This document shows positions 4,770 to 37,886 of a DNA stretch of 64,000 nt, piece after piece. The translations under genes were made by a program, and so were the position numbers. This DNA is from Clostridium sp. HBUAS56010. Its GTDB lineage: Bacteria; Bacillota; Clostridia; Lachnospirales; Lachnospiraceae. Every line of letters starts with the position of its first letter. Position 1 is the stretch's first letter. The stretch covers positions 806,001 to 870,000 of the forward strand of contig NZ_SULJ01000001.1 of the NCBI RefSeq assembly GCF_007115105.1. The letters are read 5' to 3'. Below the pieces are notes generated by a model that was not told the origin of the DNA, ran no database searches, and saw only the letters and a program-made list of their open reading frames with translations.

Positions 4770-5525
4770 CTAAATGGAATAACTGGGTTCCAGAGATATG
4801 ATTCTGGATAAAAACTGTCTGGTACGTTCTTCTTTGGGATTGGAAAAAATGTCTTTCGGTTTTCCTTCCTCTACCACAACGCCGCCATCCATAAAAATGA
4901 CTTTATCCGCCACATCCTGGGCAAAGGACATCTCATGAGTCACTACGATCATGGTGATTCCTTTTCCTGCTACTTTTTTTATGATTTCAAGCGTCTCCCC
5001 CACCAGTTCGGGATCCAGTGCGGAGGTTGGTTCGTCAAACAATATGACTTCCGGATTTAATACAAAGGCCCTGGCGATTCCCACCCTCTGCTGCTGTCCG
5101 CCGGATAGCTGACAGGGGTAATAATCATACCGGTCCGATAACCCGACCCAGTTTAATGCCTCTTCTCCCCGTTTTCTTGCTTCCGCTTTTGGTACATGCC
5201 TAGCTGTTACCAGTCCCTCCATGACATTTTCTATGGCTGTTTTATTGGCGAAGAGATTATAATTCTGAAATACAAAGGCTGTTTTTCTCCTGATACCCAG
5301 AATTTCCTTTTTGGAGGCTTTCTTTAGATCCACCTGGGACTCTCCAATGGTAAGTCTGCCGCTGTCCGCATTCTCAAGAAAATTGATGCAGCGAAGCAGG
5401 GTGGTTTTCCCGGAACCGCTGGGCCCTAAGATGACCACAACCTGACCGTCCTCCACTTTGACCGAAACATCTTTTAACACCTGATGTCTGCCAAAATCCT
5501 TTTTGATATTTTTAACTTCAATCAT
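4770..5525 (-). CDS. Polar amino acid ABC transporter ATPase
   Basis: A 251-residue ATPase of the polar amino acid uptake (PAAT) family, energising import with the two permeases upstream. Walker A is GPSGSGKTT, the signature is LSGGQQQR, and Walker B plus the following segment is [20 protein letters not shown] precedes the ATG. It overlaps the upstream permease stop by 8 bp, so translation is probably coupled. It is the last gene of the nitrogenase-like operon. B. subtilis cystine transporter ATPases (TcyC/TcyN) are among the nearest family relatives, but ATPases do not identify substrates. Confidence 0.88.
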
Positions 5526-6228
5526 ACAGATTCCTCCTGAATTTTCCGGTATACTGCCTTAATCTCTGGGCCAGGTATTCAATCACTATGGTAAATACCC
5601 AGTATATAATCGCTGCTGCCACATACCCCTCAAAAAAGGAATAGGTTCTGGAACTGGGAATGGTGGCACCTGCTACAATTTCCACAATGCCGATGGCCAT
5701 AACCACAGAAGACCCTTTGATCAGACCTACCACATTGTTGATCAGCATGGGAATGGCCACCGGAACCATCTGAGGAAGAATGATTCTTTTTATGGTCTGG
5801 ATCTTTGTCAGCCCTACGGAATATCCCGCCTCGTTCTGGCCATTATCAATAGAAAGTAACGCTCCCCGGACCGCTTCTGATATGGAACAGACTGCCATCA
5901 GGCTCAAAGCAAAGATGCCCACCCAGATATTATCCACATCTGAAATGCTTTTCTTTAGATGGAGCAGGCTTGCCAGATCGTTGAATTTAAGCATAAAGAC
6001 CAGATTGTAAATCATAAGGGCGACCACAATTGGGACTCCCTGATAAACGGTAACAAACACGGCCAGAAGCTTGCAGATCACAGGTACCTTATACACACGC
6101 ACCAAGGCAATCATCGTTCCCAGAATCAGCCCAAATGCCAATGGAATAAAAACAAGTCTCACCGTATTGGGCAGATATTTAAGTCCATATATAAGACTTT
6201 CATTAAAATGAGCCAGGTTAAAATTCAT
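5518..6228 (-). CDS. Amino acid ABC transporter permease (HisM type)
   Basis: A 236-residue permease with about five membrane spans. It has the family's EAA loop as [20 protein letters not shown] (residues about 132-151). It begins within the stop of the preceding permease (4-bp ATGA overlap) and overlaps the ATPase by 8 bp, so the three genes form one tightly coupled unit. It presumably forms a heterodimer with the 6225-6926 permease. Confidence 0.87.
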
Positions 6229-6926
6229 CCCATTTCCTCTTTTCCATAATTCATTTTGCTATTTAGCCGATAGAACAAAAGCCGGACTGCCAGACTGATG
6301 ATTACATAGATGATGACCACAAACACGTAGGCTTCCAGAACATGTTTTGTGGCAGTTCCGATGGTTTTAGCTCTCCCCATGATATCTGTAACCCCGATAA
6401 GAAAAACAAGAGAGGAGTTTTGAAATAAACCAACCAGATCCGATCCAAAAGGCGGCATGGCGGTCTTGACCATCTGAGGAAGAATGATTCTTCGAAATGT
6501 CTGGAATTCCGTCAGCCCGGCACTTAAGCCTGCCTCCGTCTGCCCATAGGGAATGGAGGTGATGGCACTGTAGAAGATGGCGGAGAGAAATGCACCCTGG
6601 TTGAGCAAAAAGGTCACATACGCAAAACTAACAGCACTCCATTCCCTGTTTAAATTGGTTCCAAAAACCGGATCCAAAAGAGCGGGAATTCCATAATACA
6701 CCAGCATCAGCTGAACCAGCATGGGAGTTCCTCTCATAAAGGATACATAGACTTTAACAAGCGGATACAATACCGGTATTTTCTTTATCTGAACCAGTAC
6801 GATTAAAATCCCAAGAAGTACTCCAAAAATGGTTGCGTAGATCACAATGGAAAAGGTGACGCATAGATACGGAAGAATTTTCGGAATGTTTTCAAAAAAC
6901 CGATCCCAGACAAACAGCTTCTCCAT
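6225..6926 (-). CDS. Amino acid ABC transporter permease (HisM type)
   Basis: A 233-residue permease homologous to its downstream neighbour. It has about five hydrophobic spans and the EAA loop EAGLSAGLTEFQTFRRIILP. The motif MRGTPMLVQL is typical of PAAT permeases. It starts 5 bp after the binding-protein gene. Two separate permeases suggest a heterodimeric channel. Confidence 0.87.
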   Translation of the reverse strand: MEKLFVWDRFFENIPKILPYLCVTFSIVIYATIFGVLLGILIVLVQIKKIPVLYPLVKVYVSFMRGTPMLVQLMLVYYGIPALLDPVFGTNLNREWSAVSFAYVTFLLNQGAFLSAIFYSAITSIPYGQTEAGLSAGLTEFQTFRRIILPQMVKTAMPPFGSDLVGLFQNSSLVFLIGVTDIMGRAKTIGTATKHVLEAYVFVVIIYVIISLAVRLLFYRLNSKMNYGKEEMG

Positions 6927-6931
6927 ATGAA

Positions 6932-7759
6932 TTACTCACTTTCTGTATAATCACCGCCGATGACATCCACTGAAATCTGTGCCAGTTTTCCATTTTCCTT
7001 CAGCTGTTTTAAGGCTCCATCCACAGCCTCCTGTAATTTGGTATTGTCTTTTGCAAATACAAAGTAGGTGGAGGAGGTCTGAATTGGTTCACCGGCTATT
7101 TTAATGGCTTCTTTTCCGTTTCCATAATTCTTATTCAGCTTTTGGGTATCCCGGGAGGTCATAATGGTGGCGTCCCATACTCCGTTTAAAAGGCCGGTTA
7201 CCGTTTCTTCATCGGTGGAATTATTCACATAATCAATTTTGATGGGATTATCCGCATGCTCCTTATTATAGTTTTCCAGAATATAAACGGAATTGGACCC
7301 GGAGGAACTTTTTACCTTTTTTCCTTTCAGATCATCAAGTGTCTTTATATCATCTCTGTCCCCAGCAACCGTAAGGTAGGTGATATACGTGGTATAGGGT
7401 TCTTTTCCAAACAGGTATTTTTCGTCCCGCTCCTTGTTCCATTCATATTGATGGGCTCCGATATCGATTTTCCCTGCGTCAAGTGAAATGAGTACATTGG
7501 CAAAATCAGAGGTCTTGAATTCAAATTCATATTCCGGAAGCAGTTCATCCACTGCCTTTAATACTTCATACTCATACCCGGCAAGGTTTCCTTTGTCATC
7601 CAGATAGCAATAAGGCTCATACGCATTTCCAGTTCCAACCACCACCTTTGTTGCTCCGCTTCCTGCCGCTGCCTCTTTTTTCCCGCATCCGGTTAAAATA
7701 ATTCCCCCATAAGCCGCCAATAATGCGGCTAAAACCAGTCGCCTGATCCCTTTTTTCAT
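6932..7759 (-). CDS. Amino-acid-type ABC substrate-binding lipoprotein
   Basis: A 275-residue type-2 periplasmic-binding-fold lipoprotein. A signal peptide ends in the lipobox LTGC at about residues 23-26, followed by a Ser/Gly/Ala-rich linker. The ligand-binding body opens with VVVGTGNAYEPYCYLDDKGN and has the second-lobe motif KVKSSSGSNSVYILENYN. The start was placed at 7759 because GAGGAG lies 6 nt upstream; the Met five codons earlier has no such site. Cystine/cysteine-derivative binders (TcyJ/TcyK class) are the nearest type I recognise. Because the gene is inside the nitrogenase-like operon, its ligand is probably that enzyme's substrate or precursor. Confidence 0.85.
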   Translation of the reverse strand: MKKGIRRLVLAALLAAYGGIILTGCGKKEAAAGSGATKVVVGTGNAYEPYCYLDDKGNLAGYEYEVLKAVDELLPEYEFEFKTSDFANVLISLDAGKIDIGAHQYEWNKERDEKYLFGKEPYTTYITYLTVAGDRDDIKTLDDLKGKKVKSSSGSNSVYILENYNKEHADNPIKIDYVNNSTDEETVTGLLNGVWDATIMTSRDTQKLNKNYGNGKEAIKIAGEPIQTSSTYFVFAKDNTKLQEAVDGALKQLKENGKLAQISVDVIGGDYTESE

Positions 7760-7777
7760 GTTTTTTCTCCTCATCCT

Positions 7778-8206
7778 TTATATCACCGATCCATTGGCGA
7801 TTCCCCTAAGTGAATGATGATGATCCACCCGGTAAAAATATAACACGATTTTATGTATAGCTTCCTCAATCTCCCCATCCACATCAAAAGAGCTGATTGC
7901 TTTCCGGTCCAGCTGCTTTTGTATGGGATTTCCGGTCTTTTTGCAAAGCAGGCACCTGCAGTCGGATATTAAGTCCACTCTGGGGTTATGAGGGCCGCTG
8001 CCGTGACAGCCGCCTCCTTTGCATTCCCCTTTATCTCCACAGGAGGAACGTTCTCCCTCTTGCAGTGTTTCAGAAATTTCCCTTCTCTCTATCAGTCCAA
8101 ATTCTCCATTTTCCCAGACCTCATAGATCAAAAATTCCGATGCTGCCCCAAAATTTAAATCAATCGTTCTCTGGTCCGAAGATGCAACTGCTATTTTATA
8201 TGACAT
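7778..8206 (-). CDS. NifX/NifB-type cluster-binding protein with a Cys-rich insertion
   Basis: A 142-residue protein of the dinitrogenase iron-molybdenum cofactor (NifX/NifY/NifB C-terminal) family, which binds and ferries NifB-type clusters. The N-terminus (YKIAVASSDQRTIDLNFG) matches the family opening. Residues about 55-90 are replaced by a segment with six cysteines (C56, C62, C67, C83, C85, C88), arranged C-x5-C-x4-C then C-x-C-x2-C. The usual C-terminal end of the domain is poorly kept and finishes in a His-rich stretch. GGAGGGA precedes the ATG. It lies 26 bp after K1. A role in cluster delivery or insertion is inferred. Confidence 0.72.
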   Translation of the reverse strand: MSYKIAVASSDQRTIDLNFGAASEFLIYEVWENGEFGLIERREISETLQEGERSSCGDKGECKGGGCHGSGPHNPRVDLISDCRCLLCKKTGNPIQKQLDRKAISSFDVDGEIEEAIHKIVLYFYRVDHHHSLRGIANGSVI

Positions 8207-8232
8207 GGTATTCCCTCCATGAAACAGATTTC

Positions 8233-9531
8233 TTAATTGAACCTTGTTTTCGCAACGGAGTAAATATCTTCGATCAGCTTTAACCCTCCGTCATAACCTG
8301 CATAGTAACTGTTCATGATCAAACGCTCATTGACCGGCCAGGAAACATTTAAAAAATGGCCGTCGGTCTGCTTTGCCACTTCCTTTTCCCAGTACCCTCC
8401 AAGGATCAGAGGGTATCCATGATAGTCGTGATCCTTGATCTCATTATGAATCTTGTATCCATCGGTTTCAAAACTGACTTCTGCCTCAATTCCAAAATTC
8501 AGATCTTTAAAGTAAGAACGGATGGCTTCCCGGTGTTCTCTCGGCGTATCGTCCACAATAAACTGCTTTGCCGGAAAAAGTCCCAGATCATTGACCAGGA
8601 ATTTGGTAATTCCAAGGGCATAATGCGCATCCGATACTACGGTAAACTGCTTTGACATAACCCGGGTTTCCAAAAACAGATCTGCATAACGCTCTATGTA
8701 ATAGTAGTAATAAGCCTCTTCCTCTGTAATGATTTTTTCCACCTTTTCTTTTGGCACTCCAGCATATTCTCCCACTGTGCGAAGGAATTTACTGGTTTCA
8801 AATGCACCAATGGGCAGTGTGGGGTAATGAAGGTAGGGGATTTTCAGCTTCTGTTCCATTTTCTTCATATTGCCAAGCCCTACCCAGGGAGAGATCAAAA
8901 GATTAAATTCAGCTGCCGGAATCTTTTTCACATTGGCAATCCCCCGGTTATACCCAAAAATAATGTTTGGAATCAGTCCCAGTTTTTCAATCAGCTTTTC
9001 AAGCTCCTTAAAATTTCCATGCCAGAACTCATCCTGATAAGGCACATCTGCCCAGATGTTCACCAGATTTTTTACACGGATATCTGATTTTTCCAGCAGC
9101 TGATCTATGATTGCGTCTACCACCTGTTCATGCCCTTTGTAGTTATTTCCCTTAAAGCCTGCCGTGGAGGCATAGATTACCGGCTTTCTTGCATCCTTAA
9201 AGCCATCTACCACTTCCTCCGTATTATCTCCCACGATTTCAGGTATGCACCCGGTCAAAACCACATATAAATCCGCATCAATTACATCCAAAGAATGCCT
9301 GATGGTGGATTCCAGCTTTTTCACCCCGCCAAATACCACATCCCTTTCATTAATGCTGGTACAGGGATAAATATTGGGAGAAAAATAGCCGGAACTTCCA
9401 GAGGAATTGGAAAGCTTTTGGGCACATCCCGGGCCGGAATGCAGCACCGGAATGGCACGGTCGATTGCCTGAACGGTCTGCATGGCACTCATTGCACATT
9501 TGTATCTTTGTTTGTCTAATATTTTTGCCAT
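8233..9531 (-). CDS. Nitrogenase component-1-like beta subunit (K1)
   Basis: A 432-residue NifK/NifN-type protein. Three cysteines have the spacing of P-cluster ligands: C12, C36 (GPGC) and C95 (VLTGC), corresponding to NifK Cys70, Cys95 and Cys153. The family motifs INERDVVFGG and AGYDGGLKLIEDIY are present. It lacks the long N-terminal extension of NifK. Its ATG overlaps the TAA of D1 (TAATG), as expected for subunits made in equal amounts. It should form an alpha2-beta2 complex with D1. NifK-like versus NifN-like function is not settled by sequence. Confidence 0.82.
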   Translation of the reverse strand: MAKILDKQRYKCAMSAMQTVQAIDRAIPVLHSGPGCAQKLSNSSGSSGYFSPNIYPCTSINERDVVFGGVKKLESTIRHSLDVIDADLYVVLTGCIPEIVGDNTEEVVDGFKDARKPVIYASTAGFKGNNYKGHEQVVDAIIDQLLEKSDIRVKNLVNIWADVPYQDEFWHGNFKELEKLIEKLGLIPNIIFGYNRGIANVKKIPAAEFNLLISPWVGLGNMKKMEQKLKIPYLHYPTLPIGAFETSKFLRTVGEYAGVPKEKVEKIITEEEAYYYYYIERYADLFLETRVMSKQFTVVSDAHYALGITKFLVNDLGLFPAKQFIVDDTPREHREAIRSYFKDLNFGIEAEVSFETDGYKIHNEIKDHDYHGYPLILGGYWEKEVAKQTDGHFLNVSWPVNERLIMNSYYAGYDGGLKLIEDIYSVAKTRFN

Positions 9532-10994
9532 TAACTGATCGCCTCCTCTAAGAAACTTCCTACCTCCTGCTTATACCACCAGTCGGTATAGGGAAGCTTC
9601 ACTCTTTTTGCCAGATTCTGTTCAAAGCTCCGGTTGCGTACCGTATCCAGGACTGTATGAGCGAATTCAAGGGTGTGCTTATAGCCGAATATCATATATT
9701 CATCGGCTACATAAACGGCTGGTATTCCCTGTTTAATTGCCCATACCGTAGAGCCTGGGTGTCTGGAAAGATATAAATCGGGCTGGTATTTATTTAAAAT
9801 ATTCATTACCTCAAAATTCTGCTGATCTGCCACGCTGGCTTCAAAGTTAATGTCATTGTCAAGGAGGTAACTCATGGCTGGGGGAACTTCTCCATTTTCA
9901 TATTTCTTATCGTAATGCCAGGCAAGCGCCCAAACCACTTCAATGCCCAGTTCATCTAAGACTCTGGTCACCTCAAAGGTGTAGCCAGGTCCCATGCCAA
10001 GAACTGCTTTTAACCCTTTCAATTCCTTCTTTACTTCTTCGATCTGCGGTATGTAGATCTTTCTCTGTTCCTCGATATAGCGTTCCACCTGAGAGCACTT
10101 TCCTGCCACTCTTCCGATTTCCCGAAGCCAGGTCTCAAAACCGGTGATTCCAAGAGGGTTTATGGTTCGGATATAAGGCACTCCATAGGTTTCTTCCAAG
10201 CCATTGCCAAGGTAGTTTCCCAAGGTTCCGCAGATACAGGTAGTTGCAACGGATTCTGATAAATGTTCCAGTTCCTCTATGGTGGCGTTTGCATAGAGAA
10301 AAATAGGATCTAAGTCAAAGTTTTTAAAGATCTCTATGATTTCACTTCTGGCGCTTTCATAGAAATTCTTAAAATTAATGGTATTCCTCTTCTCCTTTGG
10401 CGGCTTTACGATTCCGCTGAGCACGGCGTGGTCGGAAATATCAAAGCCAGTGGCCCATATCCGGGATTTAAACCCTTCGCAGTGAACCGGAATGACCGGT
10501 ACGTCGATCTGGTCCTTCACCTCATCCACCACACTGTCAATGTCTTCACCAATGATTCCGGTGGCACAGGAGCTGCTGACAAAGATGGTCTTTGGGTGAT
10601 ATCGTCTGTTCACCTCCAAAATAATATCGGTCAGTGCATCTGTGGAACCAAAGATGGTATCGTTCTCATTCATATCCGTACCGATATAGACCGATTTGTT
10701 CACAACACCTCGTTTGGCAGCGACCTGATTGGTAACGATGTACTGAGAGCTGGCAGTGGCAGAACAACCGGAGGGTCCGTGATGGATGACTGCCACATCC
10801 CGTATGCCTCCCAGCTGGCTTAAGGCACAGCCGGAAAGACAGGTGCTGGACTGGGAAAAACACCGTCCGCAGCCCTTTAAGGTTCCGCATTTGCTCTGGC
10901 TTGCAAGATCGTGCAAATCTCCTACATATCCAGTTATGGAACCAAGACGATTCTCTCTGGTTGCCAGATTAGAACTTGATAAATTAATCCCCAT
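9531..10994 (-). CDS. Nitrogenase component-1-like alpha subunit (D1)
   Basis: A 487-residue NifD/NifE-type protein. P-cluster-type cysteines fall at C52, C77 (GPSGC) and C143 (SSSCATGIIGED), spaced as in NifD. An extra cysteine-rich stretch precedes them (C36, C42, C45, C56). In the region of the FeMo-cofactor cysteine (NifD Cys275) there is TTCICGTLGNYL (C253, C255), but by eye the NifD His442 position reads VYVADEY, with Tyr428 instead of His. GGAGG 6 nt before the ATG supports the start. It pairs with K1. The missing His leaves open whether D1K1 is the scaffold (NifEN-like) or a catalyst with altered cofactor ligation. Confidence 0.82.
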   Translation of the reverse strand: MGINLSSSNLATRENRLGSITGYVGDLHDLASQSKCGTLKGCGRCFSQSSTCLSGCALSQLGGIRDVAVIHHGPSGCSATASSQYIVTNQVAAKRGVVNKSVYIGTDMNENDTIFGSTDALTDIILEVNRRYHPKTIFVSSSCATGIIGEDIDSVVDEVKDQIDVPVIPVHCEGFKSRIWATGFDISDHAVLSGIVKPPKEKRNTINFKNFYESARSEIIEIFKNFDLDPIFLYANATIEELEHLSESVATTCICGTLGNYLGNGLEETYGVPYIRTINPLGITGFETWLREIGRVAGKCSQVERYIEEQRKIYIPQIEEVKKELKGLKAVLGMGPGYTFEVTRVLDELGIEVVWALAWHYDKKYENGEVPPAMSYLLDNDINFEASVADQQNFEVMNILNKYQPDLYLSRHPGSTVWAIKQGIPAVYVADEYMIFGYKHTLEFAHTVLDTVRNRSFEQNLAKRVKLPYTDWWYKQEVGSFLEEAIS

Positions 10995-11014
10995 TTTTAA
11001 CCTCCAAATCTCCT

Positions 11015-12004
11015 TTAAGCTTCTTCAAACAGTTTTGTTGATAAGTACCGAAGGCCGGTATCCGCCAGCACAACCACAATGTTCTTTCCTTTATTCTCCG
11101 GTCTCTTTGCAATCTGGCCTGCCGCATAAATGGCCGCTCCGGAAGAAGTTCCTACAAGGATTCCATCTGATTTTGCAACTTCTCTTGCCGCTTCATATGC
11201 CTGACTGGTTTCTACCTCGATTTTTTCATCGTATATACCCAAATCCATGGTAAGCGGAATCCGTTCAATGGGCACTCCTTCAAAGGGATGAACACCTGTG
11301 ATATCCGGCGGAAGGGGATCTGTCTCATTAGGCAGAGAGCCCGGTCCCGGCTGTATGGCCACGATCTTTATATTTTCATTTTTACTCTTTAAATACTTTC
11401 CGGCTCCCGATACGGTTCCTCCGGTTCCTACACAGGCAACCAGGATATCCACAGTCCCTTCCGTATCTTCCCAAATTTCCGGTCCGGTGGTCCTCTCATG
11501 AATCGCAGGATTTGAGGCGTTTTCAATCTGGTTCACAAAGAAGATGTTCTCTTCTTTTGACAAAACATGCTTCTCCAGCGCTTTTATGGCTGCCACAAAA
11601 TCTCCTCCCGTTTCATCGAGTACTTTTTTCACCTCCGGCACCTGGGGCAGCTTTATAACTTCTCCTCCAAACGCCCGGATATTTTTAAAACGTTCTTCGC
11701 TGACATTCTCCTGAATATATACCCGAAACGGATATCCCTTTGTTGCGGCAATCGCTGCAAGACCTATTCCCGTATTTCCGCTGGTGGTTTCCACAATGGT
11801 ATACCCGGGCTTTAACAGTCCTTTTTTTTCTGCGTCTTCAATCATTGCACTGGCAATCCGGTCTTTTACGCTTTGATTGGGATTAAAATATTCCAGCTTT
11901 GCTATAATTCTCGCTTCCAGACCATGCTTCTTTCCATAGTTTTCAAGCGCAAGCAAGGGTGTCTTACCGATTAATTCGGTAATTGATTGATGTATTCCTG
12001 CCAT
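11015..12004 (-). CDS. Divergent cysteine synthase paralogue in the nitrogenase-like operon
   Basis: A 329-residue PLP enzyme of the O-acetylserine sulfhydrylase family (O-acetylserine + sulfide to cysteine). The PLP lysine is K47 in NQSVKDRIA. Substrate loop TSGNTGIG, phosphate loop GTGGTVSG and GTSSGAA are intact. Unlike the canonical copy at 36875, it has IQENVSEERF in place of [10 protein letters not shown] and an insertion of about 20 residues after the PQVPEV segment. The start was placed at 12004 because AAGGAGG is 7-8 nt upstream; the earlier ATG is too close to it. Its position between nifH and D1 implies that sulfide, or another thiol nucleophile, is a product of the system. Confidence 0.87.
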   Translation of the reverse strand: MAGIHQSITELIGKTPLLALENYGKKHGLEARIIAKLEYFNPNQSVKDRIASAMIEDAEKKGLLKPGYTIVETTSGNTGIGLAAIAATKGYPFRVYIQENVSEERFKNIRAFGGEVIKLPQVPEVKKVLDETGGDFVAAIKALEKHVLSKEENIFFVNQIENASNPAIHERTTGPEIWEDTEGTVDILVACVGTGGTVSGAGKYLKSKNENIKIVAIQPGPGSLPNETDPLPPDITGVHPFEGVPIERIPLTMDLGIYDEKIEVETSQAYEAAREVAKSDGILVGTSSGAAIYAAGQIAKRPENKGKNIVVVLADTGLRYLSTKLFEEA

Positions 12005-12036
12005 CTGCATTCCTCCTTAAACTGGTATCCAGTTGA

Positions 12037-14195
<2,159 letters not shown>

Positions 14196-14196
14196 T

Positions 14197-15642
14197 TCAT
14201 TCACCTCCGATTATGTACTTAAATGCATCTTCCTGATACCAGCTGTCTCTGTAGGGAAGCTTGATATGCTGGGAGAGTTTGACGTTAAATCCCGGATTCT
14301 CCAGCTGATCGGCGATTTTATTTCCAAGGAACAAAAGTCCGTCATACCCCATGGTGGGCCGTTTCATATCCAGAACATGAGTGGTTGGAATCCCCAGCTT
14401 TGCGGCCCATTCCGGGACTCCGATAAACACATCCGGCTTTAGCTTCTTTACCAGATTCACCTGTTCAAAGGGTTGCATGTTGGCAATATCAATCACATAA
14501 TCCGAATGAATGGTATTTAAATATTCAATATCCACCTGTGCATCCTCGTCATAAGTCGGAGTCTCAAGACCTACCAGCTTCATGCCAAAATCGTCAATCA
14601 GGGCTGCGGCTGCAAAGGAACGTCCTGTTCCACCGCAGATAAATACCCGTTTTCCTATGAGCCGTTTTTTTATGGATTCCACCAGTGGAAGGATCCGTTC
14701 ATGTTCCCTTTGAATGATTTCCTCCGCTTCTTTCTCCTTTCCCACCACACCGGCGATTCCCCGAAACCAGATATCCGTATTGCGAACCCCGATAGGCATC
14801 ACCGTATGGGAGTAGGGAATGTCGTAATCTTCATAAAGGGTTTTCATGAATTCGTCTGCAAACACTTTACAGATGGAAGTGGAGGCCTGGGCGGCAGGAA
14901 TCTCTTTTATTTTTTCCAGAGTACTGTAAAAAGGAATATAATTTACATTCAGTCCCAGAAGGGAAAGCATACGTTCCATCTCCACCTGATCCGCATAACT
15001 GATGGAAACGGGTGCGAACAAGTTGATCAGCCCCTCCCTTTTTTCCAGCCGTTCCTGCTTTAATATGTATTTGTTAATGGATATAAAGGCGGCGTCAAAA
15101 CCGGAAGCACAAATTTTTGATTTAAAGCCTTCGCAGTGTATGGGGATAACAAGAGCGTCCGTATCCTGTTGAATATCTTTTACAATTGCGTCAATGTCAT
15201 CTCCAATAATTCCGGAGGCGCAGGAGGCAAATACAAAAATAAGTCTGGGGTGATACCGTTCCACCGCTTCTTCCACCGCTTTTTTAAGCTTGCTTTCACC
15301 ACCGAAAATAACGTTGTTCTGATCCAGATTGGATACGATGATCCGGGGGTTTTTAATATGCTTTACCCCTCTGTGGGCCTGCCCGACCCGGTACTGATCC
15401 ACTGCCAGTGACGTACAGCCTACACAGCCCTGGGGCGAATGGGCGATGAAAACCGAGTCTTCCAGCGACATAAGCGCTGCCATACTGTTGATCTGCTGGC
15501 ACTGCAGCCCCTGTGCAAAACTCCGGTCTGCCTTCTTTAAACAACCATTTTTAAAATCCTCCTCTGCCAAAGCCCCGGTGGATCCCAGATCGTTATACCG
15601 GTTTTGCCGGCTTTCCCTGATTCCCGAATAAGTTTCGCTCAT
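14197..15642 (-). CDS. Nitrogenase component-1-like alpha subunit (D2)
   Basis: A 481-residue NifD/NifE-type protein. P-cluster-type cysteines are C48, C73 (HSPQGC) and C141 (FASCASGIIGDDID). Both FeMo-cofactor ligands of NifD appear to be kept: C258 in STSICKVFADEF (Cys275 position) and H422 in THVLDMKRPTMGYDG (His442 position). That makes D2K2 the better candidate for the catalytic component, by eye. Candidate starts are ATGs at 15651 and 15642; the second was chosen because GGAGAGGA ends 9 nt upstream and the N-terminus then aligns with D1. It overlaps neither neighbour and is 1 nt from K2. Confidence 0.83.
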   Translation of the reverse strand: MSETYSGIRESRQNRYNDLGSTGALAEEDFKNGCLKKADRSFAQGLQCQQINSMAALMSLEDSVFIAHSPQGCVGCTSLAVDQYRVGQAHRGVKHIKNPRIIVSNLDQNNVIFGGESKLKKAVEEAVERYHPRLIFVFASCASGIIGDDIDAIVKDIQQDTDALVIPIHCEGFKSKICASGFDAAFISINKYILKQERLEKREGLINLFAPVSISYADQVEMERMLSLLGLNVNYIPFYSTLEKIKEIPAAQASTSICKVFADEFMKTLYEDYDIPYSHTVMPIGVRNTDIWFRGIAGVVGKEKEAEEIIQREHERILPLVESIKKRLIGKRVFICGGTGRSFAAAALIDDFGMKLVGLETPTYDEDAQVDIEYLNTIHSDYVIDIANMQPFEQVNLVKKLKPDVFIGVPEWAAKLGIPTTHVLDMKRPTMGYDGLLFLGNKIADQLENPGFNVKLSQHIKLPYRDSWYQEDAFKYIIGGE

Positions 15643-15658
15643 GATACTCATTCCTCTC

Positions 15659-16018
15659 CTATCTGTCATTCAATAATTTCTCCACTTCCACATATGAAAG
15701 AAGTCTTTTTACGGAATCCTCAATAAATCCCGGCAATTCAAAGGCCAAGGTACTGTTTCCTGCCAGAGCCGCCCTTGCGCCTTCTCCGATCTTGCTGACC
15801 AGAACATAATCGCAGTCTTTTAAAATATCTGCCAGCGCGAGAAGCTTATCATTGTCATGCTCCTGTCCCTGGCATACGGGGATTGTCTGCCGGCTTTCCC
15901 CGTATCGGAATGTCATATCTTCACTGTCCGCCTCCACAATATAGAAGACATCCGCTCTTCCAAAATGCAGATTTATCACTTTCCCGTCTGATGATGCAAT
16001 TCCGATTTTATATTTCAT
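15659..16018 (-). CDS. NifX-type cluster-binding protein
   Basis: A 119-residue single-domain protein of the dinitrogenase iron-molybdenum cofactor family (NifX/NifY and the NifB C-terminal domain). It opens with KYKIGIASSDGKVINLHFG and keeps the C-terminal part that the 7778-8206 paralogue has lost. GGGAG lies 7-8 nt before the ATG. It sits between nifB and D2, 17 bp after nifB, which lacks its own NifX domain. The two may act as a split version of the fused NifB-NifX found in many diazotrophs. Expected role: carry a NifB-type cluster to the scaffold. Confidence 0.85.
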   Translation of the reverse strand: MKYKIGIASSDGKVINLHFGRADVFYIVEADSEDMTFRYGESRQTIPVCQGQEHDNDKLLALADILKDCDYVLVSKIGEGARAALAGNSTLAFELPGFIEDSVKRLLSYVEVEKLLNDR

Positions 16019-16035
16019 AACAATCTCCCTTTTCC

Positions 16036-16908
16036 TTATCCATGAGAAAAGGTATCACTGCCTGCCACTCTTCTCTCATAGATCATATCTCCATAATCTT
16101 TTCCTCCAAGAAGCCCTACTGCATCTGCACGGCAATGCTGGCAATGTCTGAATACATCAATATGTTTTCCTGCTGCTGTCCTGGCTTCATCAATTTCTGC
16201 GCACACCGGAGCGGCTTCACCGGAAAGGTCGGACTGCGGAATCAGCGGTATGATGTTATAAATACTGGCACCTGCTTCCTTTACCGCTTTTGCAATTGCT
16301 TCAATATGCCCCCCGTTGATGCTGGGAACCAGAACGGAGTTGACCTTTACCGTAATGCCTGCATCTGCAATTTTACGAATCCCTTTCAGTTGATTTTCAA
16401 TTAAAATTGCAGCGCCCTCCATGCCTATGTACACATTCTCATGATAAACAATAAAGCGGTTCAGCTTTGCTTCAATCTCAGGATCAACTGCATTGACGGT
16501 GACTGTTACAGACTCCACCCCAATCTCTATGATTTCCTCCGCCCGTTCATTGAGAAGAAGACCATTGGTGCTCATACATTTGATTAACTGAGGGTAATGC
16601 TCCTTTATGAGGCGGAAGGTCTCAAGTGCATAGTCCGTCGCCAGCGTATCGCCCGGACCTGCAATTCCTGCAACCGTGATTTCCGGGCAAAGCTTTAATG
16701 CTTTTTCCAAAACCTTGAGTGCCTCCTCCGGTGTGAGCACCTTGGAAGTGACTCCAGGCCGATCCTCGTGATCATTGATCTTTCTGTCACAGAACTTGCA
16801 GGATATGTTGCAGCCGGGGCTGACCGGAAGGTGAATTCTGCCTGTGTTGTTACGATTTCCCCCAAAACAGGGGTGGGAGTTTTGAAGTTTTTGATATGTA
16901 TTTGCCAT
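16036..16908 (-). CDS. nifB: NifB-type radical SAM cofactor synthase
   Basis: A 290-residue radical SAM enzyme that fuses two [4Fe-4S] clusters and inserts a carbide to make the [8Fe-9S-C] NifB-co. Seen: HPCF (C14), RIHLPVSPGC, the radical SAM triad C33-x3-C37-x2-C40, RPGVTSKVLTPEEAL, and the diagnostic C-terminal HCQHCRADAVGLLG (C256, C259). It ends there without a NifX domain. It is the first large gene of the operon, just after an attenuator-like hairpin. Its presence says that the system uses a carbide-containing cluster, as nitrogenases and Mar do, unlike the dark-operative protochlorophyllide and Cfb enzymes. Confidence 0.93.
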   Translation of the reverse strand: MANTYQKLQNSHPCFGGNRNNTGRIHLPVSPGCNISCKFCDRKINDHEDRPGVTSKVLTPEEALKVLEKALKLCPEITVAGIAGPGDTLATDYALETFRLIKEHYPQLIKCMSTNGLLLNERAEEIIEIGVESVTVTVNAVDPEIEAKLNRFIVYHENVYIGMEGAAILIENQLKGIRKIADAGITVKVNSVLVPSINGGHIEAIAKAVKEAGASIYNIIPLIPQSDLSGEAAPVCAEIDEARTAAGKHIDVFRHCQHCRADAVGLLGGKDYGDMIYERRVAGSDTFSHG

Positions 16909-16938
16909 TTTTCTCTCACTTTCTTAAATTTGGATAAC

Positions 16939-16995
16939 AAAAAAGACAACCATCGCCTGATATGCTCTTATCGCCTATCAGAACCTCCGGTTGTC
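16939..16995 (-). terminator. Terminator/attenuator-like hairpin before nifB
   Basis: On the minus strand GACAACC (16989-16995) pairs with GGTTGTC (16945-16951), with an inner CTGATA/TATCAG stem, followed by TTTTTT. It sits between the yezD-like gene and nifB, with no other promoter obvious before nifB. Transcription of the operon must therefore read through it. That arrangement fits attenuation but is not proof. Confidence 0.65.
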
Positions 16996-16998
16996 CAG

Positions 16999-17163
16999 TC
17001 AGTCCTTTAATCTGATTTTTTCTATTTTTTCGATCTGTACGATCCTGCCATCCTGAATGGTGATGGTGATGGAACCATACTTTACATCTTTTGCCATCTC
17101 ATCAATGAGCCTGATGTATTCATTCTCAGGTTGGGAAGCATTGGAATAAGATATATGAATCAC
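16999..17163 (-). CDS. YezD-like (DUF2292) small protein
   Basis: A 54-codon gene encoding a small protein of the DUF2292/YezD type. The core KYGSITITIQDGRIVQIEKI fits the family's 'GS-hydrophobic-QDGxIVQIEKxEKxRL' pattern and the family's length of about 55 residues. Such genes are recurrently found in sulfur-assimilation operons. The start is uncertain: GTG at 17163 directly abuts AGAAG, so the ribosome binding site is closer than usual, and an in-frame TGA sits immediately upstream. It follows a 41-codon ORF by 11 bp. Function is unknown. Confidence 0.72.
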   Translation of the reverse strand: MIHISYSNASQPENEYIRLIDEMAKDVKYGSITITIQDGRIVQIEKIEKIRLKD

Positions 17164-17174
17164 CTTCTCTCACA

Positions 17175-17300
17175 TTAAGATTCATTCTCAAACTGATTAT
17201 CTGTAAAAATAACCGTTTTCATTCTAAGGTGGTTCCCTAATGCCATGTATATGGTTCTGGTGTATCCCTGAATGGATTCAGGCAATTCATACACAGTCAT
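17175..17300 (-). CDS. Coupled 41-residue small ORF
   Basis: A 41-residue ORF whose ATG overlaps the TGA of the Cys-rich leader (TGATG), a classic translational-coupling layout. The product begins MTVYELPESIQG and contains the hydrophobic stretch MKTVIFTDNQ. I do not recognise it. There is no independent ribosome binding site, so it would be translated only by ribosomes that finish the leader. It could be a real small protein or an extension of the sensing device. Confidence 0.5.
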   Translation of the reverse strand: MTVYELPESIQGYTRTIYMALGNHLRMKTVIFTDNQFENES

Positions 17301-17404
17301 CAATACGCTTTATTCATACACATGCACACAGTTCCACAACAACCGTTTATCTGATCCGTATGGATACATAAAATCTCTCTGGTTACACAGACTGTGTTTT
17401 TCAT
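17300..17404 (-). CDS. Cys-rich leader peptide of the nitrogenase-like operon
   Basis: A 34-residue ORF with six cysteines, four of them clustered as GCCGTVCMCM near its end. GGAAAGGAAG lies 8 nt before the ATG. It begins about 57 nt downstream of a consensus promoter and is followed by the coupled 41-codon ORF, yezD and a terminator-like hairpin. High cysteine density at this position suggests a ribosome-based sensor of charged Cys-tRNA, as in other amino acid leader peptides. A cysteine-rich thiol/metal peptide is the alternative. Confidence 0.68.
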   Translation of the reverse strand: MKNTVCVTREILCIHTDQINGCCGTVCMCMNKAY

Positions 17405-17419
17405 ATGTAATTCTTCCTT

Positions 17420-17489
17420 TCCCTATTAGCATACTAATTTAATATGTTTATATGTATAGTATTATAGTATCATCTTTTTTCGTTGTCAA
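17420..17489 (-). promoter_or_regulatory. Consensus promoter plus shared regulatory block
   Basis: On the minus strand TTGACA (17484-17489), a 17-nt spacer and TATAAT (17461-17466) form a perfect sigma-A-type promoter. Downstream, 17420-17449 reads AAACATAT-TA-AATTAGTATG-CT-AATAGGGA. This is almost the same as the block at 31649-31676 before the cysteine ABC operon, differing by two substitutions and a 2-nt gap. The block lies in the 5' untranslated leader and includes part of the ribosome binding site, so it may act on DNA (repressor operator) or RNA. Confidence 0.75.
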
Positions 17490-17525
17490 TATTTATTTTC
17501 ATTTTATTGATTATTTTTTACAATA

Positions 17526-17563
17526 CAAAAAAGGCTGACGCAGGATTCCCTTCGCATCAGCCT
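17526..17563 (-). terminator. Intrinsic terminator after the SulP gene
   Basis: On the minus strand AGGCTGATGC pairs with GCGTCAGCCT (one G-T pair), followed by a run of T. It ends SulP transcription just before the nitrogenase-like operon's promoter. Confidence 0.8.
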
Positions 17564-17576
17564 ATTTTGTTTCGCT

Positions 17577-19214
17577 TTATAACCCTTCTGCATGAATCAA
17601 TGCTTCATCAATACAGTCTGCAATATTCTCTCTCCCGATGATATCTGCAAATCCTGCCTTTTCCATAATGGACATCGGCTGTTCATTCACGTGGGATAAA
17701 ACCAGAGTAACCTTTTTCTTATTGAGGCTATGATAAAGTTGCTGAAGCGTTCTCAGCGCGGTGGCATCCATCGCCGGCACACTGCGCATCCGGAGAATGA
17801 GCACTCTTTTTCCTTCTTCCAGAACAACCTTGGATATCTTATGCGCCGCTCCGAAAAATAAAGGACCATCGACCTCAAACACAGCCACATGTTTTGGAAC
17901 AGGCTTTAGGTCAAGAGCACTTTCTTCTCCTTCTTCATGATCCTCTAAATACTTCCAGCCGCTCACATCCGTCACATCAGCCATTCGTTTCATGAAAAGC
18001 AGGCAGGCTAATGCCAGCCCAACGCCAATGGCAACTACAAGATCAAATACCACGGTCAGACCAAAGGTAATCAGAAGAACAAACCAGTCACTTTTTGGTG
18101 CGGTTTTTACAATTGATACAAATTCCCGCCATTCGCTCATATTATAAGCAACCATAAAGAGAATGGCTGCAATCGCAGGCATGGGGATTAATGCTGCATA
18201 AGGCATGAGAAGAATCAGAACCAAAAATAAAAGCACTGCATGAACCATACCGGAAACAGGGGTTTTTCCGCCATTTTTAATGTTGGCAGCGGTTCGGGCA
18301 ATCGCTCCCGTCGCTGGAATTCCTCCAAATAATGCGGAACATGTATTTCCCACACCCTGAGCAACCAGTTCCATATTAGAATTATGCCTGGTTCCTGCCA
18401 TTCCATCTGCAACCACACAGGAGAGCAAAGATTCTACGGCGGCAAGCACAGCGATGGTCATTGCATCTGGAAATACATTCTTCATCATGTCAATAGAAAA
18501 GACCGGAAGGTGAAACACTGGAGGTTTGGGAGATATGGTGTAGAGATCTCCAATTGTGTTCACAGGCAGATCCAGTATCTTCACAGCCAGAGCCGTTACG
18601 ATAACCGCAATGAGAGACGGCGGAATCTTTTTGAAAAATTTCGGCCAGATAATGAGAATCAGAAGTGCTGTCATACCCACAACAAAAGCCATGGGATTCA
18701 AGGTTCCAAAACTGTGGAAGACTTCTTTTAACTTGTCCATTGTCTCTACCGGTGACTCCTGAAATGTAAGCCCAAGGAAATCCTTAATCTGACCGATTAA
18801 TATGGTCACTGCAATTCCGGTGGTAAAGCCGGTGGTAAGCGTGTAAGGAATAAAACGAATCAGACTGCCCAGACGAAGCAGTCCCATAATGATTAAAATC
18901 ACTCCTGCCATGATTGTAGCCATCGCCAGCCCGTCCATGCCGTTTCTTATGACAATTCCTGCCACAATGGAGGCAAAAGCCGCTGTTGGTCCTGCAATCT
19001 GTACTTTACTGCCTCCCAGAAAGGAAATCACAAAACCTGCTACAATTGCAGTATAAAGTCCCTGTTCCGGAGTAACTCCCGAAGCCAGCGCAAGAGCGAT
19101 GGAAAGGGGAAGGGCAATGATTGCCACGATGATCCCGGATATGAGATCTTTCACAAACTGGTCTTTGGTGTAATGCTTCATTGATAAAAAAAACTGGGGT
19201 ACCATATCTTTCAT
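17577..19214 (-). CDS. SulP-family anion transporter with STAS domain
   Basis: A 545-residue SLC26/SulP transporter. It has about 12-14 membrane spans (signature VAIIALPLSIALALASGVTPEQGLYTAIVAGF, quoted here only in part: ALPLSIALALASGVTPEQ) and a cytoplasmic C-terminal STAS domain from about residue 430 (VFEVDGPLFFGAAHKISKV). Substrates in the family include sulfate, bicarbonate and other anions. Sulfate is attractive because of the sulfur neighbours, but no sulfate-reduction genes lie in the window. The start was set at 19214 on GGATCGGA spacing; the longer frame has no such site. The promoter TTGCAT-17-TATATT is flanked by a 10-bp inverted repeat. Confidence 0.85.
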   Translation of the reverse strand: MKDMVPQFFLSMKHYTKDQFVKDLISGIIVAIIALPLSIALALASGVTPEQGLYTAIVAGFVISFLGGSKVQIAGPTAAFASIVAGIVIRNGMDGLAMATIMAGVILIIMGLLRLGSLIRFIPYTLTTGFTTGIAVTILIGQIKDFLGLTFQESPVETMDKLKEVFHSFGTLNPMAFVVGMTALLILIIWPKFFKKIPPSLIAVIVTALAVKILDLPVNTIGDLYTISPKPPVFHLPVFSIDMMKNVFPDAMTIAVLAAVESLLSCVVADGMAGTRHNSNMELVAQGVGNTCSALFGGIPATGAIARTAANIKNGGKTPVSGMVHAVLLFLVLILLMPYAALIPMPAIAAILFMVAYNMSEWREFVSIVKTAPKSDWFVLLITFGLTVVFDLVVAIGVGLALACLLFMKRMADVTDVSGWKYLEDHEEGEESALDLKPVPKHVAVFEVDGPLFFGAAHKISKVVLEEGKRVLILRMRSVPAMDATALRTLQQLYHSLNKKKVTLVLSHVNEQPMSIMEKAGFADIIGRENIADCIDEALIHAEGL

Positions 19215-19249
19215 TTTTTCCGATCCTTTGTATAATATAAAATTTTCAT

Positions 19250-19306
19250 AAACATGTAACAATATAATCAGCCTGGGCATAGAATGCAAGCGTTTTTTAC
19301 ATGTTT
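19250..19306. promoter_or_regulatory. Promoter flanked by AAACATGTAA/TTACATGTTT repeat
   Basis: AAACATGTAA (19250-19259) and its exact reverse complement TTACATGTTT (19297-19306) flank a minus-strand promoter (TTGCAT, 17-nt spacer, TATATT) for the SulP gene. Two distant half sites around a promoter suggest looping or cooperative repressor binding. Confidence 0.5.
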
Positions 19307-19311
19307 CTTAA

Positions 19312-21036
19312 TTAGAACAATCCCTCTGGTAAACCCGGACAGGAAATCTCATCGTTGCAATCAAACAAAAGGAAGAAGTCTTCGTACTTTAATCTTCCGG
19401 ATTTCAACTCTTCCGCAAGCAAAAGGAGAGTCACAGAACTGACTGCCGCCCCTTTCAATCCATTTCGGACGGATATCAGATTGAGCCTGTCCCGGAATCC
19501 TCCGATAAATGCGCCTGAAAGAAATGCAAACCGGAAATGAGTGACGGATTCATCAAAAATCTCCCACCACCGGTTGGGATTTAACAAATCGCTTCTTTCC
19601 CTGTTCTCTTCCAGGTAGCGGTTCATCTCATCCGCCTGTTTAATCGGGAGGGAGTACCCCTTTCCATATGCCTTATTGTCAATAATCAGTCCTTTGTCTC
19701 CGTAGAACACACAGACATCAGGCTTTCTGGTGTCCCCAAGTCTGGCACCCTGAAAGGAAAGCTCTTTTGTCAAAAGTTCCGCGGTCTGAATCTCGTAATC
19801 CCGGTCAGAGTTCCCGTCAAATCCCAGATCAACTAAAATCAGATACCTGTGATCAATCCTTGTAAGCCGGCTTCTTAGATAATCCTTATAGACAGAAACT
19901 TCCGACTTGACAGGAATTGCAAACTCTTGCTGGTCCGGCAGTTCCAGACCATGAATCTCATCCATGATCCGGTAAGTGTCCCCGGTCTTTTTCACCTGCA
20001 ATCCAATATTTTCGAAACTCCGGATATCATCGAGAATTGTCTCCGGCTCTTCATAAAGCCCTTTCCGGATTAGATATTCCCTGATCTGATAGAGACTGCG
20101 GTAACTGCCTTCCAGATGCTTGATAATATGGGTTCTTCTGTTTCTTAGATAATCCCGGTCCGCCGCTTTTGTTGCCAGCATGTCCCACATGACCCGCTTA
20201 GATATCTTAAAAGCTCTGGAAACACCTGTAATATGCTTGATCACCGTTCTGCCCCTGAGCGTAAGCTTATAGGACTGGGGAATTACCGCGTCTGATATGG
20301 TTTTTGGTTCCCGGATAATCCAGCCTGTCTGTAAAAGCCAGCTGCATATGGTGCGGACATATTTGTCACTGGTGCCCTCCGTATCCTGCAATAGTTTTGT
20401 TCGCTCTTCCTTTGTATCCGCCTCCATAAGCCCTTGTAAAATCATAGACTGGGGAATGGAGGTGAAACCGGCTTCTCCTATAAATCCAAGCCTTGCCCCG
20501 ATTTCAAACTTCGTTAAATGCCCTTCCTTTTCCAGAAGAGACAAGACTCTGCAAACAGGGGGATAAGATAACAATGCAGTTTTGAGCACCTCTGCTTCTT
20601 CCTGGCTTCCTTCTTCTGAACCGGCATAGAGACTGCCCAGTTCGGAAAGAGAACAGACATCGTCTCTCCTGTCATAATTGAGAAATCCCACACTCACTGC
20701 CCAGCGTAAAAAGGAATCGGCAGGCCAGTCACTCTGGTATTCCTTCCTCTGCCCGGGAAGAACCGCCTGAATAATTCCGGAACAAGGTGCATTGCTTCTG
20801 CTGTAACCGGCAGGAGTTCCCTTTCCTTTCAGGTGGGTATAGGGAATACAGACAGGTTTTGCCTCCAGCTCTTTGATGAACGTATCTCTTCCATCTTTTT
20901 CCAATATCAGTCTGGGAATCTTGTCTGTGCGAAGGATTCGATTAATGGGAGATCCTGGTACAAAAACGGATACCACATTTTTCAAATTCTTCAGGGTATA
21001 TGCCTCCTGTACCCAGCCAAATGTTCTGTCTGCCAC
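19312..21036 (-). CDS. FokI-like type IIS restriction endonuclease
   Basis: A 574-residue protein matching R.FokI (583 residues) over its whole length from memory. The N-terminal recognition part has TFGWVQ, SNAPCSGIIQA, DWPADSFLRWA, HLTKFEIG and SDKYVRT, each with an obvious FokI counterpart. The C-terminal PD-(D/E)XK nuclease has GDTRKPD (D440) and IIDNKAYGKGYSLPI (D453, K455), matching FokI D450, D467 and K469. Then come QADEMNRYLEENRER and NPNRWWEIF. The start is GTG at 21036, 7 nt after GGGAAG; the earlier ATG overlaps a -10-like TATACT. No methyltransferase gene is adjacent or anywhere in the window. Confidence 0.92.
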   Translation of the reverse strand: MADRTFGWVQEAYTLKNLKNVVSVFVPGSPINRILRTDKIPRLILEKDGRDTFIKELEAKPVCIPYTHLKGKGTPAGYSRSNAPCSGIIQAVLPGQRKEYQSDWPADSFLRWAVSVGFLNYDRRDDVCSLSELGSLYAGSEEGSQEEAEVLKTALLSYPPVCRVLSLLEKEGHLTKFEIGARLGFIGEAGFTSIPQSMILQGLMEADTKEERTKLLQDTEGTSDKYVRTICSWLLQTGWIIREPKTISDAVIPQSYKLTLRGRTVIKHITGVSRAFKISKRVMWDMLATKAADRDYLRNRRTHIIKHLEGSYRSLYQIREYLIRKGLYEEPETILDDIRSFENIGLQVKKTGDTYRIMDEIHGLELPDQQEFAIPVKSEVSVYKDYLRSRLTRIDHRYLILVDLGFDGNSDRDYEIQTAELLTKELSFQGARLGDTRKPDVCVFYGDKGLIIDNKAYGKGYSLPIKQADEMNRYLEENRERSDLLNPNRWWEIFDESVTHFRFAFLSGAFIGGFRDRLNLISVRNGLKGAAVSSVTLLLLAEELKSGRLKYEDFFLLFDCNDEISCPGLPEGLF

Positions 21037-21170
21037 GTTTTTTCTTCCCTTTCTTTTTTTTAGTATAGCATACATTGGAGGTTTCGCAAAATGATTTGCT
21101 TTGTTCTCTTTGTTCTCCTGTGATATAATAACAAAGATCGGGAACCTCCAGGAGAAAGGAACAAAGGATA

Positions 21171-37807: not shown

Positions 37808-37857
37808 ATGTTTATCTCCTTTTCCAGACTTCATTCGGTCTTGCATGTGGTACTTTA

Positions 37858-37886
37858 ATATTACTTTGTAAAACATACTTTGTCAA
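37858..37886 (-). promoter_or_regulatory. cysK promoter
   Basis: TTGACA (37881-37886), 17-nt spacer, TAATAT (37858-37863) on the minus strand, about 45 bp before the cysK start. Confidence 0.7.

Follow-up and report, generated by a model that had tools for sequence, protein, structure and literature searches.

Gene content and organisation of the operon

An operon of thirteen genes encoding nitrogenase-like and sulfur-related proteins was analysed in a 64,000-nucleotide stretch of the genome of Clostridium sp. HBUAS56010 (Lachnospiraceae; contig NZ_SULJ01000001.1, positions 806,001 to 870,000), which is referred to here as the window. All thirteen open reading frames (ORFs) lie on the minus strand between positions 4770 and 16908; adjacent frames either overlap by 1-11 nt or are separated by 3-26 nt. 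From 16908 downward they encode a NifB-type protein (B), a NifX-type protein (X1), a nitrogenase component-1 pair (E'-N'), an Fe protein (H), a cysteine synthase paralogue (CysK), a second component-1 pair (D-K), a further NifX-type protein (X2) and the substrate-binding protein, two permeases and ATPase of an ABC importer (Table 1). An upstream leader region (17489-16999, minus strand) holds a promoter-like site, a Cys-rich ORF and a small OscA-related protein. The operon is a recurring, sulfur-linked variant of nitrogenase-like systems of the methylthio-alkane reductase (Mar) type.

An earlier annotation made from the letters of this DNA (the original prediction) had listed the same thirteen-gene content without the leader region. 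Family models confirmed that content, as well as the absence of nifV, nifU and nifS from the operon; no PII gene was found among the thirteen genes either. A syntenic copy of the gene set was identified in five named close relatives (loci L061, L062, L063, L089 and L115), and the arrangement is therefore not due to chance. On another contig (L009) the host genome carries a clostridial nif cluster with genes for H, D, K and E and an N-B fusion, of which nifH (458 bits), nifE (580) and nifB (421) exceeded their cut-offs, while nifD (638), nifK (413) and nifN (305) fell slightly under theirs, with the alpha chain exceeding the component-I cut-off. The thirteen-gene operon is therefore additional to this cluster.

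Table 1. Features of the operon and its leader region, with positions in the window
Feature	Position	Strand	Remarks
Promoter-like site TTGACA-17-TATAAT	17461..17489	-	12/12 consensus, sigma-70-like; pattern match only
Leader ORF, 34 aa, six Cys, cluster CCGTVCMC	17300..17404	-	Purine-rich site upstream
Small DUF2292 protein, OscA/YezD-like, 54 aa	16999..17163	-	PF10055 6.8e-16; NCBIfam OscA 9.6e-10
B, NifB-type radical SAM core	16036..16908	-	TIGR01290 271 bits, profile positions 10-279 of 441, cut-off 344
X1, NifX-type cofactor carrier	15659..16018	-	PF02579 1.7e-15
E', alpha subunit of component 1; retains cofactor Cys, lacks loop-I His/Arg, Cys at Trp195 position	14197..15669	-	
N', beta subunit, partner of E'	12909..14204	-	MarK best solved match (8e-67); P-cluster Cys aligned at three positions
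H, NifH-type Fe protein	12037..12885	-	455.6 bits, TIGR01287 cut-off 394
CysK-like paralogue	11015..12010	-	TIGR01136 322 bits, cysKM cut-off 344
D, Mar-type alpha subunit; Mar ligands C255, R411-H412, W180	9531..10994	-	Best solved match MarD 9fmg_A 2e-91
K, Mar-type beta subunit	8233..9531	-	Best solved match MarK 1e-113
X2, NifX-type protein, Cys-rich insert	7778..8206	-	PF02579 3.6e-10; insert read from translation
Substrate-binding lipoprotein, TcyK-like	6932..7774	-	Best solved relatives B. subtilis YtmK 3.1e-47, Lmo2349 (Listeria) 3.4e-47
Permease 1, cystine-permease-like	6225..6926	-	Best NCBIfam model cystine permease, below cut-off
Permease 2, cystine-permease-like	5518..6228	-	Best NCBIfam model cystine permease, below cut-off
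ATPase, TcyN-like	4770..5525	-	TcyN best of 193 NCBIfam models, 320.5 bits, cut-off 406

Relationship of the D-K pair to methylthio-alkane reductase

Both component-1 pairs scored far below all Nif, Vnf, Anf and Bch cut-offs, and for all four subunits the closest solved structures by sequence were those of Mar. D was found to keep equivalents of the MarD residues C270, R428, H429, W195 and F199. Across 32 D rows (the window and 31 from named loci), Cys270 was present in 32/32 and Arg428, His429 and Trp195 in 31/32 each, the roles of these MarD ligand residues being those given in PMC12552129. The positions of Gln191 and His195, residues held there to be essential for N2 reduction, are occupied in D by Trp and Phe, the same as in MarD, and N2 reduction is described there as not performed by Mar.

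A tree of 64 rows was built from alpha subunits only, using NifD and NifE of the host genome as outgroup. NifD and NifE stood apart from the other alpha subunits (support 100/100). D belonged to an 18-row lineage (100/96) that is the sister of a 12-row MarD clade (99/95), the two being joined at 100/100, so that D lies outside the MarD clade. E' formed a separate clade of 18 rows (100/100), without the loci L138 and L140, and its nearest neighbour was unsure (84/67); it did not group with NifE, which fell with NifD (100/100). The original prediction had named placement of both pairs within NifDK and NifEN as one outcome that would speak against it; the alpha subunits of both fell outside NifD and NifE, and H was placed inside the NifH clade. 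Canonical nitrogen fixation by the operon was rejected on these residues, on the trees and on the separate nif cluster.

Like the operon described here, MarBHDK of Rhodospirillum rubrum comprises a NifB-type maturase, an Fe protein and a DK pair. Unlike Mar, the operon holds two component-1 pairs, a NifH-type Fe protein, an importer, NifX proteins and a Cys leader. Isethionate reductase (Isr), a second sulfur role of nitrogenase-like enzymes (PMC11423573), is represented by IsrBHDK of Rhodobacter capsulatus, whose nitrogenase-like route to sulfur likewise involves an ABC importer and a radical SAM partner. IsrD is described as having a single P-cluster Cys and as lacking a Cys275 equivalent (PMC11423573), whereas three P-cluster Cys and a Cys275 equivalent are found in both D and E'; the B protein here is NifB-like, unlike that of Isr.

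Distribution and properties of the E'-N' pair

Relatives were collected with a named-genome scan whose alignment was headed by E', the best 80 of 588 relatives being kept. These E' loci come from Lacrimispora, rumen Lachnospiraceae including Butyrivibrio hungatei, metagenome-assembled genomes (MAGs) of Ruminococcus, Treponema from the rumen and elsewhere, Propionispira arboris, Clostridium puniceum, C. acidisoli, Anaerocolumna and a Dehalococcoidia MAG, with two archaea (L138, L140) and an Oscillospiraceae MAG (L139) at 40-41% identity. The distribution is patchy: at E <= 1e-120, E' was found in 4/391 genomes of the window's class, its own included, and one genome of the same genus gave no match at this threshold. 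When D was used as query against 398 genomes of the phylum, 61 had a match at E <= 1e-20; these matches include true NifD, and no more than three candidates were scored per genome.

The cofactor Cys was present in 81/81 E' rows, and loop I of E' is shortened to FIGVPxWAxxLG. A His at the loop-I ligand place was absent from the readable rows among these 81 (L132 being unreadable), except in the outlier L140; in L113 a His occurs some residues past that place. E' differs from MarD in the loss of R428/H429 and W195, and the two component-1 pairs are not equivalent.

The retention of the cysteine together with the loss of the axial histidine is NifE-like, and E'-N' resembles NifEN also in being a second pair beside a first. 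A role of E'-N' as a scaffold maturing the cofactor of D-K, the latter being the sole enzyme, was thus considered. Scaffold roles for four linked genes were proposed by Dos Santos et al. 2012 (PMC3464626), the two pairs share one operon, and the D and E' subtrees appeared alike in order when judged by eye. In genome searches for D, H and NifD, which covered the genomes behind 40 of the 80 E' loci, a D orthologue (at least 48% identity) was present in 29/40. It was absent in 11/40, one of which, Anaerocolumna, carries a D fragment; several of the eleven are MAGs, in which absence is weaker evidence. Ten of the eleven also lacked a close NifD, and in two genomes (Lachnospiraceae MC2017, G412, and G418) E' was the sole alpha subunit found by the D query at E <= 1e-30. 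The loci of these two genomes, L111 and L133, hold E', N', H and B, with a full importer upstream in L133, while in three genomes without D (G428, G429 and G430) no H was found at E <= 1e-70 either.

Because 11/40 genomes hold E'-N' without a DK orthologue, E'-N' is probably an enzyme and not only a scaffold; unlike NifEN, it has an alpha subunit that forms its own clade. The features of E' are retained in the D-less genomes, which argues that the pair works by itself. In the 29 genomes with a D orthologue it may also act as a scaffold. The scaffold-only role is weakened by these results and is considered unlikely.

The Fe protein and its use as a marker of nitrogen fixation

The best solved match of H was NifH of C. 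pasteurianum (3e-138), followed at a distance by MarH (1.4e-85). The nifH model TIGR01287 was also passed by a MarH-type control (L055, 405.8 bits); its cut-off thus cannot separate NifH and MarH types, which the tree does. In the Fe-protein tree, whose bootstrap was not fully settled and which contained some long rows, NifH-type and MarH-type proteins were split (98/94 and 100/98), and H of the window was placed inside the NifH clade, 98/94 apart from MarH. Among H genes from E' loci, 23/27 were NifH-type and four (L098, L109, L123 and L129) MarH-type. Operons have probably swapped Fe proteins with one another.

With the host NifD as query, 29/40 genomes with E' had no match at E <= 1e-100 and 27/40 none at E <= 1e-35; the two genomes that account for the difference are G419, with a 35% match, and G430, with one of 33%. 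Twenty-two of the 29 without a close NifD carry an H 76-89% identical to that of the window, and none of these 22 had a NifD-like match at E <= 1e-35; the operon thus occurs independently of NifDK. All eight operon H proteins tested from genomes without a close NifD passed the nifH cut-off (8/8). The NifH-type gene of the operon could therefore be taken for a marker of nitrogen fixation. Cluster III nifH genes of Lachnospira/Butyrivibrio type were described from human stool by Igai et al. 2016 (PMC4995403), who noted some partner NifD proteins without the histidine and others of the same clade with it, and kept all as possible fixers. These stool genes may belong to the operon type described here, which bears on whether nifH counts from gut and rumen reflect nitrogen fixers.

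An N2-fixing nitrogenase of group IV-A (Nfa) type was also weighed, since in the view of Igai et al. nothing spoke against N2 fixation in gut bacteria that carry such genes (PMC4995403). N2 fixation by a group IV enzyme has been reported for Endomicrobium proavitum (cited in PMC9147875, PMC4995403 and PMC11257099), in which NifD is likewise without the usual histidine, and the order nifB-X-E'N'-H-DK resembles a nif operon with a NifH-type Fe protein. This explanation appears very improbable in view of the Trp and Phe shared by D with MarD, the lack of nifV and PII genes beside a separate nif cluster, and the sulfur-type leader and neighbours described below. Neither E. proavitum nor a Paenibacillus with Nfa proteins is named in the titles of the best 80 of 588 relatives of E'. 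The nifHDK-like genes of Paenibacillus sabinae were judged not to serve N2 fixation (PMC4246453).

Importer, cysteine synthase and maturation proteins

For all four importer subunits the models of cystine transporters scored best. YtmK, the closest solved relative of the binding protein, corresponds to TcyK. The importer is closest, and clearly related, to the TcyJKLMN cystine system, from which its transport function is predicted. In B. subtilis, TcyJKLMN is encoded in a CymR-repressed operon shared with snaA, cmoOIJ and sndA, and CysK acts as co-repressor of CymR (PMC11487621); CmoO/CmoJ dealkylate S-alkylcysteine using oxygen (PMC10863075).

The co-occurrence of these genes was determined for the best 80 E' loci, many of which are short, the counts being limited to what each locus holds. 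N' was found in 77, D in 33, K in 34, H in 29, B in 28 and an X protein in 42, with a CysK homologue in 21, a substrate-binding protein in 24 and an Rrf2 regulator in 17. Other recurrent neighbours were a Cys/Met PLP enzyme (9) and a class I/II aminotransferase (9), one member of each of these two groups and of the Rrf2 group being named by Pfam. A TcyN-like ATPase (at least 55% identity) was present in 26/80 loci, including distant taxa, and in ten it lay within 1.5 kb upstream of E'; the ten belong to clostridia, a Treponema MAG and a Chloroflexota MAG. Twenty control loci with other nitrogenase-like genes, of which two overlap, gave 0/20 with a TcyN-like ATPase even at 45% and no binding protein, while 10/20 had CysK. 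Hence CysK often accompanies the broader set of nitrogenase-like genes, and the importer is associated with E' and its relatives. The original prediction, which had asked whether importer and CysK stay with the operon in other genomes, was thus borne out for the importer, CysK being less regular.

In three of the five otherwise syntenic close relatives (L061, L062 and L115) the CysK gene is missing, and CysK as an obligatory partner was rejected. Thus the claim that sulfide goes to CysK does not hold in general. Nor is the pairing with CysK without precedent, as had been supposed: Dos Santos et al. 2012 noted Cys275-type nitrogenase-like genes commonly beside cysteine synthase or O-acetylhomoserine sulfhydrylase (PMC3464626), and the cysteine synthase link was made again in a 2026 paper for a termite spirochete (PMC13067680).

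The operon CysK has paralogues of 52% and 50% identity elsewhere in the genome. Within the window, a second CysK (36875-37876, minus strand) passes the CysK cut-off (454.6 bits) and is probably the housekeeping cysteine synthase, so that the operon CysK would be a divergent paralogue. The start of an ORF near this second gene (39110-39541) looks like an Rrf2 regulator. B of the operon has no fused NifX domain.

A Cys-rich leader ahead of the operon

The original prediction had ended the operon at 17404, which is the start codon of the 34-aa, six-Cys leader ORF; the coordinate stands, the ORF itself having been left undescribed. A promoter-like site of 12/12 consensus occurs at the matching place in L061, and none was found there in L083 by the pattern scan. 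The DUF2292 protein between leader and operon scored 38 bits against the OscA model (cut-off 85).

Cys-rich leaders were defined by at least four Cys and a CC pair, a criterion fixed after the first six leaders were known, and were found in 11/28 operon-start regions of relatives versus 4/519 other upstream regions (Fisher 9e-13). Without the five Lacrimispora-type loci the count was 6/23 (p 6e-7), the sequences being related, and with one count per lineage it was 4/21 (p 1e-4). Four lineages have such a leader ahead of the operon, in most cases followed by an intrinsic terminator. For the twelve leaders (window and 11 loci), a terminator was identified behind 10/12, with a T-run of at least five T 50-66 nt past the leader stop and energies of -12.0 to -17.3 kcal/mol that were equalled by at most 1/200 shuffles each. 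The L134 leader is followed by a comparable hairpin and then four T. A consensus terminator scan gave one terminator in L061 (shuffles mean 0.6).

The leader is likely to be a Cys attenuator whose terminator is missing in the host genome, as its sequence and those of its relatives suggest. A riboswitch or T-box ahead of the operon was rejected, since an Rfam scan of the window matched no element. Short ORFs with runs of Cys codons also precede cysteine genes in the cys operons of Actinobacteria, where no conserved terminator was found according to PMC1262725, in contrast to the terminators identified here. For Cys leader peptides in clostridia, no such case appeared among the paper titles listed by a literature search. 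One paper reportedly describes Cys leaders as attenuators in mycobacteria.

A putative role in cysteine starvation

We propose that this is a cysteine-starvation operon, in which cysteine thioethers, the putative substrate, are imported and reductively cleaved at a C-S bond when cysteine is short, a reading to which we assign a probability of about 0.5. A shortage of charged Cys-tRNA would cause ribosomes to stall on the Cys codons of the leader, and transcription would then read through into the operon past an attenuator terminator that appears intact in relatives and missing in the host genome. The TcyJKLMN-type importer would take up a cysteine-like organosulfur compound. The NifB-type enzyme would build a cluster, presumably [Fe8S9C], which the X proteins would carry to D-K and E'-N'. 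Supplied by the NifH-type Fe protein and ATP, both pairs may then cleave C-S bonds reductively, S-alkylcysteine giving cysteine and a hydrocarbon, and other cleavages giving a thiol or sulfide from which CysK-type enzymes could form cysteine.

The B. subtilis snaA-tcyJKLMN-cmoOIJ-sndA operon likewise combines a Tcy importer for cysteine-derived compounds with a link to cysteine shortage. Its flavoenzymes are oxygen-dependent, whereas nitrogenase-like reductases may stand in their place here. Since anaerobes combine this type of importer with Mar-like reductases, their operon may be the oxygen-free counterpart of this salvage of S-alkylcysteine. The original prediction of a sulfur-acquiring relative of Mar and not a nitrogenase agrees with the Mar ligands in D, the trees, the Cys leader and the Tcy-type importer.

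Several observations weigh against the proposed role in cysteine starvation. No importer subunit reaches the curated cut-off of its cystine-transporter model, and the OscA match of the small leader protein is likewise under its cut-off. No TcyN-like gene of at least 55% identity was seen in 54/80 E' loci, though many loci are short, and 13/31 of all E' loci with both 9 kb flanks have one. CysK is inconstant in E' loci, and other nitrogenase-like loci carry it no less often. By the criterion used, which was set with six leaders in hand, 17/28 operon-start regions have no Cys-rich leader. The window's own leader region has no intrinsic terminator, so attenuation may be lost in the host genome; in L083 the consensus scan found no terminator, the one assigned coming from the energy-based script alone, and the Rfam result adds no regulatory element. 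Finally, E' is without the histidine ligand of Mar, and its cofactor may therefore differ.

That many E' loci show no importer, and that D carries the Mar ligands with MarD and MarK as best solved matches for D and K, would also fit another explanation. D-K may act on volatile sulfur compounds (2-methylthioethanol, dimethyl sulfide) as a conventional methylthio-alkane reductase that feeds methionine or cysteine synthesis, and the importer would then be a separate cystine uptake system that is merely co-regulated. The D lineage lies beside and not inside the MarD clade, the Fe protein is not of MarH type, and the importer is found just upstream of E' also where a D orthologue is absent (L129 of G424 and L133 of G418). 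We regard this explanation as rather improbable.

If the cysteine-starvation reading is correct, the substrates of nitrogenase-type chemistry, so far known to include tetrapyrroles, methylthio-alkanes and isethionate, would extend to amino acids. Rumen and gut anaerobes would have an oxygen-free route to cysteine, perhaps releasing hydrocarbons. More tentatively, and with doubt, E'-N' might be an undescribed nitrogenase-like family that holds its cluster without the histidine of Mar, is served by a NifH-type Fe protein and converts S-alkylcysteine to cysteine and a hydrocarbon; its Fe-protein genes would then account for a considerable share of the cluster III nifH from gut and rumen that surveys count as nitrogen fixers.

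Several features of the operon were not found in print. Among the titles and abstract openings listed by a search of open-licence literature, none links a nitrogenase-like operon other than nitrogenase to a Tcy importer, to a Cys leader or to the presence of two component-1 pairs, excepting four-gene arrays with possible scaffold pairs (PMC3464626). The operons of non-nitrogenase relatives are stated by Lago-Maciel et al. to hold only DK paralogues (PMC12552129), which is contradicted by the two-pair operon and its relatives.

Additional nitrogenase-like and neighbouring genes

A further component-1 clade of ten rows (100/98) was identified with a Gly-His pair in loop I (L041 2453-4030, L043 4546-6111, L044 5875-7374, L052 and L055-L060), B and H homologues being found in 6/10 of its loci and CysK also in 6/10. 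A 3.0 Mb Bacillota MAG (G427, locus L106) gave 17 matches to D at E <= 1e-30, an unusual expansion if the bin is clean. At L010 (6865-14037) the host genome holds a third nifH-like gene, accompanied by two short genes that resemble component 1. This nifH-like gene scored 327 bits, under the nifH cut-off, and 341 with the CfbC model, and its neighbours read like an iron-siderophore importer.

In L062, K, X2, the binding-protein gene and permease 1 occur in two consecutive copies (15101-21458), representing a tandem duplication or an assembly error. Directly upstream of the operon in the window lie a SulP-family transporter gene (17577-19289) and, upstream of this, a gene for a FokI-type restriction enzyme (19312-21075, minus strand) with all four FokI Pfam domains present. 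Both neighbours are kept in five Lacrimispora-type relatives.

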